A stretch of 35,709 bases of DNA from Chloroflexota bacterium (GTDB taxonomy: Bacteria; Chloroflexota; Anaerolineae; Aggregatilineales; Phototrophicaceae): contig JAPOYT010000110.1 of NCBI GenBank assembly GCA_026706445.1, forward strand, positions 17,578 to 53,286, written 5' to 3'. Shown piece after piece: positions 4,928 through 34,790 of the stretch. The stretch's first letter is position 1, and each line of letters opens with the position of its first letter. The translations under genes and the position numbers were made by a program. Below the pieces are notes generated by a model. It did no database searches. It worked only from the letters and a program-made list of their open reading frames with translations, and was not told the DNA's origin.

Positions 4928-4992
4928 GGGCGGCCGGCGGTCAGTGTCGGCGGTCAGTGTCTGCGCGACCTACGCGCCCTATCAGGTCGCCC
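4928..4992. repeat. Hairpin repeat, 65 nt, carrying two nested 22 nt units
   Basis: Outer arms GGGCGGCC (4928-4935) and GGTCGCCC (4985-4992) pair with one G-T wobble. Between them lies one 22 nt unit split into 4936-4948 and 4971-4979, and inside it a second complete unit at 4949-4970. Removing both leaves a 21 nt hairpin like the simple copies elsewhere in the window. Length 65 = 21 + 2 x 22. It lies between the oxidoreductase start and the 3' end of the CopD-like gene. Confidence 0.85.
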
Positions 4993-5014: not shown

Positions 5015-5057
5015 GGGCGAGTCACCGCCGTCGGTCAGTGTCTGCGCGACCTCGCCC
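5015..5057. repeat. Hairpin repeat, 43 nt, carrying one 22 nt unit
   Basis: Arms GGGCGAG and CTCGCCC with the flank CTACA. The 22 nt unit occupies 5030-5051. Removing it gives exactly the 21 nt sequence present at 10994-11014 and 16571-16591, so those are empty sites of the same hairpin. The unit here is in the opposite orientation, relative to the hairpin, to the one at 31991-32012. Confidence 0.9.
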
Positions 5058-5623: not shown

Positions 5624-5644
5624 GGGCGAGCCACCGGCTCGCCC
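5624..5644. repeat. Simple 21 nt hairpin repeat
   Basis: Perfect 9 bp stem GGGCGAGCC / GGCTCGCCC with a 3 nt loop, followed by TTACAG. It is identical to what remains of the 43 nt copy at 31978-32020 when its 22 nt insert is removed. It lies just upstream of the CopD-like gene. Confidence 0.85.
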
Positions 5645-10940: not shown

Positions 10941-11020
10941 GCTTACGATTGGCGTGCGAGTCACCGCCACGCCCCTACAGGCTTACAATTGGCGGGCGAG
11001 TCACCGCCTCGCCCCTACAT
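10941..11020. repeat. 40 nt tandem duplication including a simple hairpin repeat
   Basis: 10941-10980 and 10981-11020 are the same 40 nt with four differences. The second copy contains the 21 nt hairpin GGGCGAG / CTCGCCC at 10994-11014, an exact empty site for the filled copy at 5015-5057. The first copy forms an alternative stem GGCGTG / CACGCC. The flank CTACA at 11015 supplies the TAG stop of the acyl-CoA dehydrogenase paralogue 2 gene on the minus strand. Confidence 0.85.
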
Positions 11021-15432: not shown

Positions 15433-15452
15433 GGGCGACCCAAGGGTCGCCC
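15433..15452. repeat. Simple 20 nt hairpin repeat
   Basis: Stem GGGCGACCC / GGGTCGCCC, 9 perfect pairs, followed by CCTACAG. It lies between the dehydrogenase 3' end and the synthase-like gene start, inside the operon. The stem differs from the copy at 16532 by one compensated pair. Confidence 0.85.
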
Positions 15453-16531: not shown

Positions 16532-16551
16532 GGGCGACACAAGTGTCGCCC
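16532..16551. repeat. Simple 20 nt hairpin repeat
   Basis: Stem GGGCGACAC / GTGTCGCCC with an AA loop, followed by CCTACAG. Relative to the copy at 15433 the middle C-G pair is an A-T pair on both arms, a compensated change. Confidence 0.85.
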
Positions 16552-16570: not shown

Positions 16571-16591
16571 GGGCGAGTCACCGCCTCGCCC
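16571..16591. repeat. Simple 21 nt hairpin repeat supplying a stop codon
   Basis: GGGCGAG / CTCGCCC arms, identical to 10994-11014. The following CTACAG contains, on the minus strand, the TAG stop codon (16594-16592) of the isomerase gene. Confidence 0.85.
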
Positions 16592-23523: not shown

Positions 23524-24669
23524 ATGGCCGAGCGGAAAAACCCCCACCCTAAATCCCTCCCCGGCGGGTCTGTGTCTACGCGATCCCATAAAGAGGGAGG
23601 GACTTCAACGCTCCCCTTCCCTCCTCGTGGGGGAAAGGGGCTGGGGGATGGGGGGGCAGACCGCGTCGTCCTCAGCGTTGACAAGCTGCGCATTCATTAC
23701 GCGACGCCGCAGGGCGACGTCATCGCCGTCAGCGATATCAGCTTTGATCTGTACGAAGGCGAGACGCTGGGTTTGGTTGGCGAGAGCGGCTGCGGCAAGT
23801 CGACCACGGCTTACGGCATCCTGCAGTTGGTGCAGCCGCCCGGTTACATCGTGAACGGCAGTATTGAAGTCGACGGCACCGAGGTGCTGAACCTGACGGA
23901 AGAAGAGCTGCGCAAGTTCCGCTGGACCGGGCTGTCGCTGATCCCGCAAGGCGCGATGAACTCGCTGAATCCGACGATGCGCGTCAAAGACCAGATCATT
24001 GATGTGATCGAATCGCACGAGGGCAAGCAGAACGACAAAGAGGCTTTGCGCAAGCGCATCTTCGAGTTATTCCAGAACGTTGGCTTGCCCAATCGCATTT
24101 ACAATATGTACCCGCACGAGCTCAGCGGCGGCATGAAGCAGCGCGTCTGCATCGCCATGGGCGTGGCGCTGCATCCGACCGTCGTCATCGCCGACGAAGC
24201 GACCAGCGCGCTGGATGTCGTCGTGCAGCGCATCGTGGCGCAGACCTTGGTCAAGGTGAAGGACGAGATCGGCGTTTCGCTTATCGTCATCGGCCACGAT
24301 ATGGGGTTGCTGGCGCAAATCGTCGACCGCATCGCCGTGATGTACGCCGGCAAAATGGTCGAGATCGCGCCCGTGGAAAATGTCTATGCCAATCCGCTGC
24401 ATCCCTACACGCAGCTGCTTATCGATTCGATACCGTCCATCAAAGAGCGGAAGCCGCTGAAGATCACCGAGGGCATCACGCATGACCCGCGCAACCCGCC
24501 CTCGGGCTGCATCTTTCGGCTGCGCTGCCCCTTCGCCTGGGAGCATTGCGCCGAGGTCGAACCGCCTCCGATCTACGTAGAAGACAAACACGAGGTTGCT
24601 TGTCACTTATACGCCGAGCAATTTGAAGAGAGGAGGACGGATGCCCTCGCCACTCTTGCAAATCCGTGA
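23524..24669 (+). CDS. ABC importer ATPase, DppD/OppD type, with repeat-encoded N-terminal extension
   Basis: 381 residues; the family usually has about 330. Walker A GESGCGKST at residues 86-94, Q-loop SLIPQGAMNSL, signature LSGGMKQR near 200, Walker B VVIADEAT, His-switch VIGHDMG, and the C-terminal oligopeptide-type Cys segment GCIFRLRCPFAWEHC. The ABC domain proper begins only at VLSVDKLRIHYATP (about residue 49). The first 48 codons after the normal start are the inverted copy of the palindromic repeat (23541-23656), itself interrupted by a 22 nt unit at 23564-23585. No ATG, GTG or TTG lies between the repeat and the ABC domain, so the repeat must be translated. The original start and ribosome-site region, 21 nt after the permease, is kept. 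Confidence 0.92.
   Translation: MAERKNPHPKSLPGGSVSTRSHKEGGTSTLPFPPRGGKGLGDGGADRVVLSVDKLRIHYATPQGDVIAVSDISFDLYEGETLGLVGESGCGKSTTAYGILQLVQPPGYIVNGSIEVDGTEVLNLTEEELRKFRWTGLSLIPQGAMNSLNPTMRVKDQIIDVIESHEGKQNDKEALRKRIFELFQNVGLPNRIYNMYPHELSGGMKQRVCIAMGVALHPTVVIADEATSALDVVVQRIVAQTLVKVKDEIGVSLIVIGHDMGLLAQIVDRIAVMYAGKMVEIAPVENVYANPLHPYTQLLIDSIPSIKERKPLKITEGITHDPRNPPSGCIFRLRCPFAWEHCAEVEPPPIYVEDKHEVACHLYAEQFEERRTDALATLANP
23541..23656. repeat. Long palindromic repeat inserted in the ATPase coding region
   Basis: Inverted copy of 21366-21482. Shared blocks include CCCCCATCCCCCA, CACGAGGAGGGAAGGGG and CCCTCCCTCTTTATGGG on the minus strand. The central part is shorter than in the other copy, and after TTTATGGG it holds a 22 nt dispersed unit (23564-23585) absent from the intergenic copy. 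The whole element keeps the reading frame open. Confidence 0.85.
23564..23585. repeat. 22 nt dispersed unit nested in the palindromic repeat
   Basis: Contains TGTGTCTACGCGATC; the reverse complement carries the conserved loop GCGTAGACAC. Its translation, GSVSTRS, ends like that of the unit in the M20 gene (SASSTRS). Runs of G at the junction make the insert length ambiguous between 22 and 24 nt. Confidence 0.7.
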
Positions 24670-31930: not shown

Positions 31931-31951
31931 GGGCGACTCGCCGAGGCGCCC
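31931..31951. repeat. Simple 21 nt hairpin repeat
   Basis: Preceded by TGTAG. Arms GGGCG-A-CTC and GAG-G-CGCCC with one A/G mismatch. The copy at 34705 has the same mismatch but CTT/AAG in place of CTC/GAG, a compensated change. Confidence 0.8.
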
Positions 31952-31977: not shown

Positions 31978-32020
31978 GGGCGAGCCACCGCTGCGCGTAG
32001 ACACTGCAGTTCGCTCGCCC
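31978..32020. repeat. Hairpin repeat, 43 nt, carrying one 22 nt unit
   Basis: Outer arms GGGCGAGC and GCTCGCCC, then CTACAG. The unit is 31991-32012 (begins CTGCGCGTAGACACTGCAG). Removing it gives exactly the 21 nt found at 5624-5644. Confidence 0.9.
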
Positions 32021-32508: not shown

Positions 32509-32889
32509 CTATTCCACCGGATAGGCGATCGTTGTGATCAAGCTCTCGATTTTTCCGCCGCTGGCGTACATGCGCGAGTACTGCACCGATATCGGCACAT
32601 CGCTGCGCACGCGAATGCCGTAGGGCACATCAAAAGGAATCTCGTAGCCGGCTATCTGCTCGGGCTTGTCGAGGCGGATGTGCGGGCAGCGCTTGGCTGG
32701 CACCGTGATGGCGATGCCCTCGACGGCTTCCCGATCTTCAAAGTAGAAATCGAATATGACATTGGCGTCGTCGGGCGTGACGTTGAGGATGCAGATTGAT
32801 TCGTGATTCTTATTGACCGGATCATCATCCGCCGGCGCCGCCAGGTAGGCGTCCGGGATCAGCCAGGTCAACGCGCCATTGGTGGGCAT
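32509..32889 (-). CDS. Anabaena sensory rhodopsin transducer (ASRT)-family protein
   Basis: 126 residues, the normal ASRT length. It matches the family along its whole length: WLIPDAYLAAP near the start, HESICILNVTPDDANVIF, DREAVEGIAITVPAKRCPHI, DVPYGIRVRSDVPISVQYSR and a final LITTIAYPVE. In Anabaena this soluble tetrameric beta-protein interacts with sensory rhodopsin, but many bacteria without rhodopsin have relatives, which have been proposed to bind small molecules such as sugars. AGGA lies 6 nt before the ATG at 32889. No rhodopsin is present here, so a carbohydrate-linked role near these sugar genes is possible, but inferred. Confidence 0.88.
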   Translation of the reverse strand: MPTNGALTWLIPDAYLAAPADDDPVNKNHESICILNVTPDDANVIFDFYFEDREAVEGIAITVPAKRCPHIRLDKPEQIAGYEIPFDVPYGIRVRSDVPISVQYSRMYASGGKIESLITTIAYPVE

Positions 32890-33055: not shown

Positions 33056-33120
33056 GGGCGACTCACAGGATCGCGCAGGTCGCGTAGACACTGACCGCCG
33101 ACACTGACCGTCAGTCGCCC
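33056..33120. repeat. Hairpin repeat, 65 nt, carrying two nested 22 nt units
   Basis: Arms GGGCGACT and AGTCGCCC, then CTACA. The outer unit is split into 33069-33077 and 33100-33112; the inner complete unit is 33078-33099. Removing both leaves a 21 nt hairpin. The break point inside the outer unit is the same as in the copy at 4928-4992. Confidence 0.88.
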
Positions 33121-34748: not shown

Positions 34749-34790
34749 GGGCGTTTCAGCGCCGCGCGAAGACGCTAGGGTCAAACGCCC
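34749..34790. repeat. Hairpin repeat, 42 nt, with a diverged 22 nt unit
   Basis: Outer arms GGGCGTTT and AAACGCCC, 8 perfect pairs. Inside, GCGCGAAGACGCT resembles the conserved core GCGCGTAGACACT; the best 22 nt alignment matches 14 positions. Length 42 = 20 + 22. Confidence 0.6.

Follow-up and report, generated by a model that had tools for sequence, protein, structure and literature searches.

We put at roughly 80% the probability that the intergenic hairpins of this Chloroflexota genome harbour a family of very small insertion elements: a hairpin unit is copied and inserted precisely into other hairpins, with a trans-acting enzyme working on single-stranded DNA hairpins as the favoured route. 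On this model the 22-nt hairpin unit would be copied and inserted precisely after a purine, with no target duplication. Insertion would favour other hairpins, at the 3′ edge of their apical loop, whether in a RAYT-type REP, in another palindromic repeat or in the unit itself; insertion into its own loop would yield nests of at least 65 nt. Since the unit has no coding content, its mover must act in trans, putatively as an enzyme encoded elsewhere that would recognise the hairpin and its loop. Such a unit would rank among the smallest mobile elements known, and it lets the question of how such elements move be tested.

The window, that is the whole stretch of 35,709 nt that was analysed, belongs to a draft MAG (4.26 Mb in 276 contigs, 93% complete) from which 1.19 Mb was sampled in stretches. 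A sequence-only reading of the window had proposed a 22-nt mobile unit from two sets of filled and empty hairpins, and its letters are correct (Table 1). Removing 31991-32012 from the hairpin at 31978-32020 leaves 5624-5644 letter for letter, and 5015-5057 without 5030-5051 matches 10994-11014 and 16571-16591 exactly. Both inserts are 22 nt long, share the core GCGyAGACACT and lie in opposite orientations, all as described. No extra target bases had been seen, and indeed none are duplicated at the exact filled and empty sites, which separates the unit from a MITE with its terminal inverted repeats and target-site duplication. The size classes listed for the window (20/21, 42/43 and 65 nt) are all found. 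The reading had further held that drift poorly explains the two exact pairs. Nor is the pattern due to chance: the 1.19 Mb contains 186 REP-like hairpins against 2 in a reversed-sequence control, and 98 matches to the loop motif GCG[TC]AGACAC against 6.6 expected.

Table 1 Filled, empty and nested hairpins located in the window
Feature	Position	Strand	Basis
Filled REP host hairpin, 43 nt, second half of REPIN	31978..32020	+	letter check; orthologues empty or differently filled
22-nt unit CTGC-GCGTAGACACT-GCAG-TTC within host 31978-32020	31991..32012	+	letter check
First REP of the REPIN shared with 31978-32020; GTAG at foot, insert-free	31931..31951	.	sequence; pair kept in orthologues
Empty 21-nt host hairpin, equal to 31978-32020 minus unit	5624..5644	+	letter check
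Filled host hairpin, 43 nt	5015..5057	+	letter check
22-nt unit GGTC-GCGCAGACACT-GACC-GAC, reverse orientation, within 5015-5057	5030..5051	-	letter check
Empty host hairpin, equal to 5015-5057 minus unit	10994..11014	+	letter check
Empty host hairpin, equal to 5015-5057 minus unit	16571..16591	+	letter check
Nested 65-nt hairpin: host 33056-33068 + 33113-33120; outer unit 33069-33077 + 33100-33112	33056..33120	+	
Inner 22-nt unit GGTCGCGTAGACACTGACCGCC, splitting outer unit at GCGCA^GACAC	33078..33099	+	
Second nested 65-nt host; GGGC-type outer unit	4928..4992	-	
Inner 22-nt unit of the 4928-4992 nest	4949..4970	-	
Unit with single stem mismatch (GATC/GACC); host is a CCCTCCC...GGGAGGG hairpin repeat, non-REP	23564..23585	-	
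Degenerate 42-nt filled hairpin; mutated unit CCGCGCGAAGACGCTAGGGTC	34749..34790	+	
Empty host hairpin, 20 nt	15433..15452	+	
Empty host hairpin, 20 nt	16532..16551	+	

The proposal of a mobile unit is supported as regards mobility and has to be amended as regards identity: the unit is not a fixed sequence and is defined by its structure, in forms of 22 or 24 nt. The 22-nt form comprises a 4-bp stem, a near-invariant 11-nt loop GCGTAGACACW and a 3-nt 3′ tail, mostly GCC, GTC or TTC. The 24-nt form has a 5-bp stem and is seen in genes. A search of the genome for the exact 13-mer GACACTGACCGCC gives 76 matches, and one for its reversed pattern gives none. Around the 98 loops from the motif search, four Watson–Crick stem pairs are present in 71 and three in 24. 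For the 61 distinct units, chosen by loop only, stem pairing is 88.5% compared with 59.3% after shuffling; the stem covariation score is 0.58 compared with 0.14, none of 500 shuffles reaches it and no slid-register control exceeds 0.19. The predicted RNA fold of the unit places AGAC as the apical loop. Single stem mispairs are A.C more often than G.T (18 versus 5, p 0.011) which, given the tolerance of G-U pairs, hints that the complementary strand of the unit is the folded one. We note a further genomic repeat, GTAGACACACGCGC...CCGCCCACGCAAAATACCTTGCGTCC (L040:6497, L028:1051, L034:2860, L031:3917 and L051:11744), that has GTAGACAC in common with the unit but is without a unit-type stem.

Host hairpins, counted in the 1.19 Mb as those with CTACA at one foot, increase in length by steps. 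There are 126 of 20/21 nt, 26 entries at 24 sites of 42-44 nt and 14 true nests of 64/65 nt (chance pairings of two REPs excluded), and none of 22-41 nt. The length distribution thus has the peaks at +22 and +44 that a mobile unit had been predicted to give, with nothing between. Hairpins of the +44 class carry one unit inserted within another, not two inserts side by side. In the 64/65-nt nests the inner unit interrupts the outer one after its ninth base, at GTA^GAC, and the remaining 13 bases follow; the split point A^GAC falls in the predicted AGAC apical loop. Nests three deep also occur. A tiny unit thereby explains the length steps of bacterial intergenic hairpins. The master sequence GGTCGCGTAGACACTGACCGCC (GGTC..GCC) accounts for 54 of 73 nested and 50 of 227 non-nested units in a set partly enriched for GGTC, its loci having been fetched by a GGTC pattern. 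In the sample from the genome itself, unselected on stem, the figures are 9 of 17 and 11 of 76. This enrichment is what would be expected if the inner copies are younger.

Many nests are uneven (12 of 28, with 9 or 13 nt missing), so slippage also acts. That deletions and slippage occur lends something to the opposite polarity, in which the long hairpins are ancestral and lost their inner hairpin to become the short ones, or in which slippage lengthened the long ones. The unit is not flanked by direct repeats that could direct a precise loss of 22 nt, most hairpins in the genome are empty, and one orthologous site, described next, carries different units and both orientations. This explanation is already contradicted and we regard it as highly improbable.

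The interval between the two genes flanking 31978-32020 was recovered from 29 congeners and holds a REPIN, a pair of REPs in inverted orientation. In G010, G009 and G018 the sequence of the second REP is GGGCGAGCCACCGGCTCGCCC, exactly the empty 21-mer; in G023, G028, G004 and G017 this REP is empty with different stems. It is filled in G026 with a unit nearly identical to 31991-32012 and in G001 with a different unit, of GGTA type; in G011 the unit has the opposite orientation. In several other species the second REP is missing. The different units and both orientations point to at least three separate insertions at one place. At a second orthologous site G026 and G028 are filled, reading GGGCGAGACAAG[CCGCGCGTAGACACTGCGGTTC]TCTCGCCC, and the G023 sequence is exactly the empty 20-mer. 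Two additional orthologous filled and empty pairs were found, each with one further base changed. Orthologous sites of related species that differ by the insert alone, the comparison recommended with the original claim, therefore exist.

The host at these sites is a hairpin of the GTAG-tagged REP/REPIN kind, with 8-bp arms, GTAG at the foot, inverted pairs and many copies. It is a palindrome within the 20-40 nt range with a GTAG foot, and a RAYT gene flanked by REPs is present. The hairpin that had been named as host is not the only one: units also sit in CCCTCCC...GGGAGGG hairpins, in CACAGAG-/CACCGAG-type repeats and in a few genes. Filled and empty pairs are likewise found in the CACAGAG and GGAGGG repeats and in genes. 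On the strand that gives the unit forward, 89 of 96 units with a hairpin host are found at the loop's 3′ edge, and a purine precedes the unit at 220 of 227 non-nested sites. The exception to the edge rule is the host GGGCGAGTCACCGCCTCGCCC (for example 5015-5057), where the unit occupies the opposite edge of the loop, still after a purine. One tiny element would thus parasitise another, the REP, as well as itself.

Only 17 of the 198 placeable units fall in predicted genes, in sequence that is 80% coding; the preference for hairpins may therefore be partly apparent, with selection removing insertions into genes. Three genes with a unit are longer than a relative's by 24, 45 and 36 nt. All are multiples of three, so the gene-borne unit is probably translated, often as V-S-T-R. 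Units were located inside protein genes at L051:11152, L030:2761, L030:12888 and L043:10595.

Some copies of the unit are spread as passengers of larger repeats, and the copies are not all independent. A 65-nt CTGC composite recurs, with similar flanks, at six or more places. In G014 most units lie within one amplified CCCTCCC...GGGAGGG repeat (L296-L325), and the unit type of that genome seems to spread as its passenger. Both cases suit an explanation in which the unit cannot move by itself and the filled and empty forms are two REP alleles that spread through gene conversion and the RAYT-driven transposition of REPs. REPs and a RAYT do coexist in the genome, the RAYT of L035 is flanked by REPs, and the numbers of units and REPs are moderately correlated (rho 0.47). 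Alleles of a REP would not account for units in unrelated hosts that have empty counterparts too (CACAGAG and GGAGGG repeats, genes), for units nested in units or for both orientations at one orthologous REP. Nor do the counts agree, since G018 has 408 REPs and 3 units, and G008 has 86 units without a RAYT match. The other hosts and the nesting largely refute this explanation, which we consider improbable.

A 20-mer pattern for the unit matches 30 of the 34 genomes of the genus (0 to 144 copies each) and none of 27 genomes from other genera in the family and order; a 17-mer pattern matches none of 294 genomes from other genera in the class, all genomes compared being drafts (MAGs). On the sequences compared, the unit is restricted to a single genus, of uncultured Chloroflexota. 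G014 scores 0 by the 20-mer pattern, yet a covariance model finds units there, mostly of one other stem type. The same model finds no units in G031, and two weak matches each in G022 and G033. Named records with the unit are Chloroflexota/Anaerolineae MAGs, and viral contigs gave no exact match. The one match outside the Chloroflexota, L110 (Rhizobiaceae), was set aside as chance: it falls within a permease-like gene, and its surroundings contain neither a second unit nor a REP.

In another explanation the hairpin is kept as an RNA or DNA signal (for protein binding, as a terminator or for mRNA stability) and its copying is incidental. Strong loop conservation, stem covariation and the mostly intergenic location of the units are all compatible with such a role. 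Against it, the orthologous positions are not conserved between species, congeners range from 0 to more than 140 copies and an Rfam search of the window gave no match. We think a retained signal a poor candidate beside the insertion of a mobile unit.

What might move the unit was sought among the genes of the genus. A RAYT-like transposase, which the sequence-only reading had suggested looking for, is indeed in the genome (L035:1034-1681, MPNHLHG motif, with flanking REPs at 1098 (-) and 1693 (+)) but goes with the host REP. Gene and repeats are probably a REPtron serving the host hairpins: a RAYT that is present and REP-flanked explains the REPs. A role for RAYT as mover of the unit was not accepted. 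Unit number correlates with RAYT number at rho 0.43 and with REP number at rho 0.47, RNA-model counts over the genus (at least 150 candidates) being left out of these correlations, so copy number tracks RAYT loosely. Such a role is contradicted by G008, a draft genome with 86 units and no RAYT match, and by G031, with four RAYTs, 140 REPs and zero units. We also observed another RAYT-like gene at L255:11812-12432, with 87-95% identity to G011, G026, G028 and G010 and partly masked letters. Around ten congeners have open frames of ~640-660 aa with a weak Y1_Tnp match (for example G031:C16:183391-183717 and G009:C74:11167-11469).

An RNA-level element, as proposed for the Nostoc SDRs, would have a 22-nt RNA enter transcripts and be copied back into DNA. 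The compensatory changes, which conserve structure, fit this route, as does the surplus of A.C mispairs relative to G.T, which would suit folding of the complementary strand with G-U pairs tolerated. The orientation of the units relative to transcription (sense/antisense) is 52 to 68 (p 0.17), no significant bias. RVT_1 was found in 7 of the 34 genomes of the genus and in none of the other 27, among them the unit's own genome and several unit-rich ones, although missing reverse transcriptases or RAYTs are uncertain in draft MAGs (93% complete for the own genome). We therefore judge the RNA route rather unlikely. With no significant orientation bias, and with reverse transcriptase missing from the own genome and most carriers, it is somewhat more probable that the putative mover works on hairpins of single-stranded DNA and not on transcripts. 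With 34 genomes spanning 0 to more than 140 copies, exact interspecies before and after sites and a clear target rule, a search for the enzyme is tractable.

To our knowledge, very small dispersed repeats have come only from cyanobacteria so far, and how a sequence of ~22 nt moves is a standing question for repeats of the Nostoc type. In 2008 Elhai et al. reportedly described Nostoc SDR elements of 21-27 nt that are dispersed, show compensatory changes, insert precisely, nest in themselves and are limited to one clade; they are also said to lie within tandem repeats and small repeats. The unit is like these in size and dispersal, in a covarying structure with compensatory changes, in the precision of filled and empty sites, in self-nesting and in its restriction to one clade; it is likened by description and homology is not claimed. 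It differs in its phylum, in a loop of its own (GCGTAGACAC), in the preference for the 3′ edge of loops after a purine and in the 24-nt form in genes. Unlike what was proposed for the Nostoc SDRs, an RNA route has no good evidence here. SDR5 is reported, in a passage of PMC4390886, to interrupt HIP1 between its third and fourth bases. The Chloroflexota unit is an apparently independent case of very small dispersed repeats, in a second phylum. We suggest, tentatively and at less than even odds, that these are single-hairpin micro-transposons of ~22 nt whose putative trans enzyme opens apical loops after a purine, a so far undescribed chemistry that would have evolved separately from the cyanobacterial SDRs.

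GTAG-tagged REPs, REPINs and RAYT transposases have been described (PMC3733652, PMC3116915). Unlike them, the unit has no GTAG foot (it begins at the stem, and GTAG occurs only within the loop), a different fold, other targets and a loose tie to RAYT. RPE-1 and most families of Rickettsia palindromic elements (RPE) are much longer, ~100 nt or more, and we know of no RPE that nests in itself at a fixed point. RPE are palindromic repeats whose insertion into genes is tolerated when in frame (PMC3733652). The unit is similarly a palindromic repeat tolerated in frame within genes, and is unlike RPE in being far shorter and in nesting in itself at a fixed point. IS200/IS605 transposition uses single-stranded hairpins without target duplication; an element of this type has a hairpin at each end and enters a fixed target of 4-5 nt. 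Neither paired end hairpins nor a fixed 4-5 nt target is seen in the unit; in place of a constant left tetra- or pentanucleotide, only the purine at -1 is near-constant. We also note that the gene at 32509-32889, next to the hairpin at 31978-32020, belongs to the Anabaena sensory rhodopsin transducer family (ASRT, PF07100).
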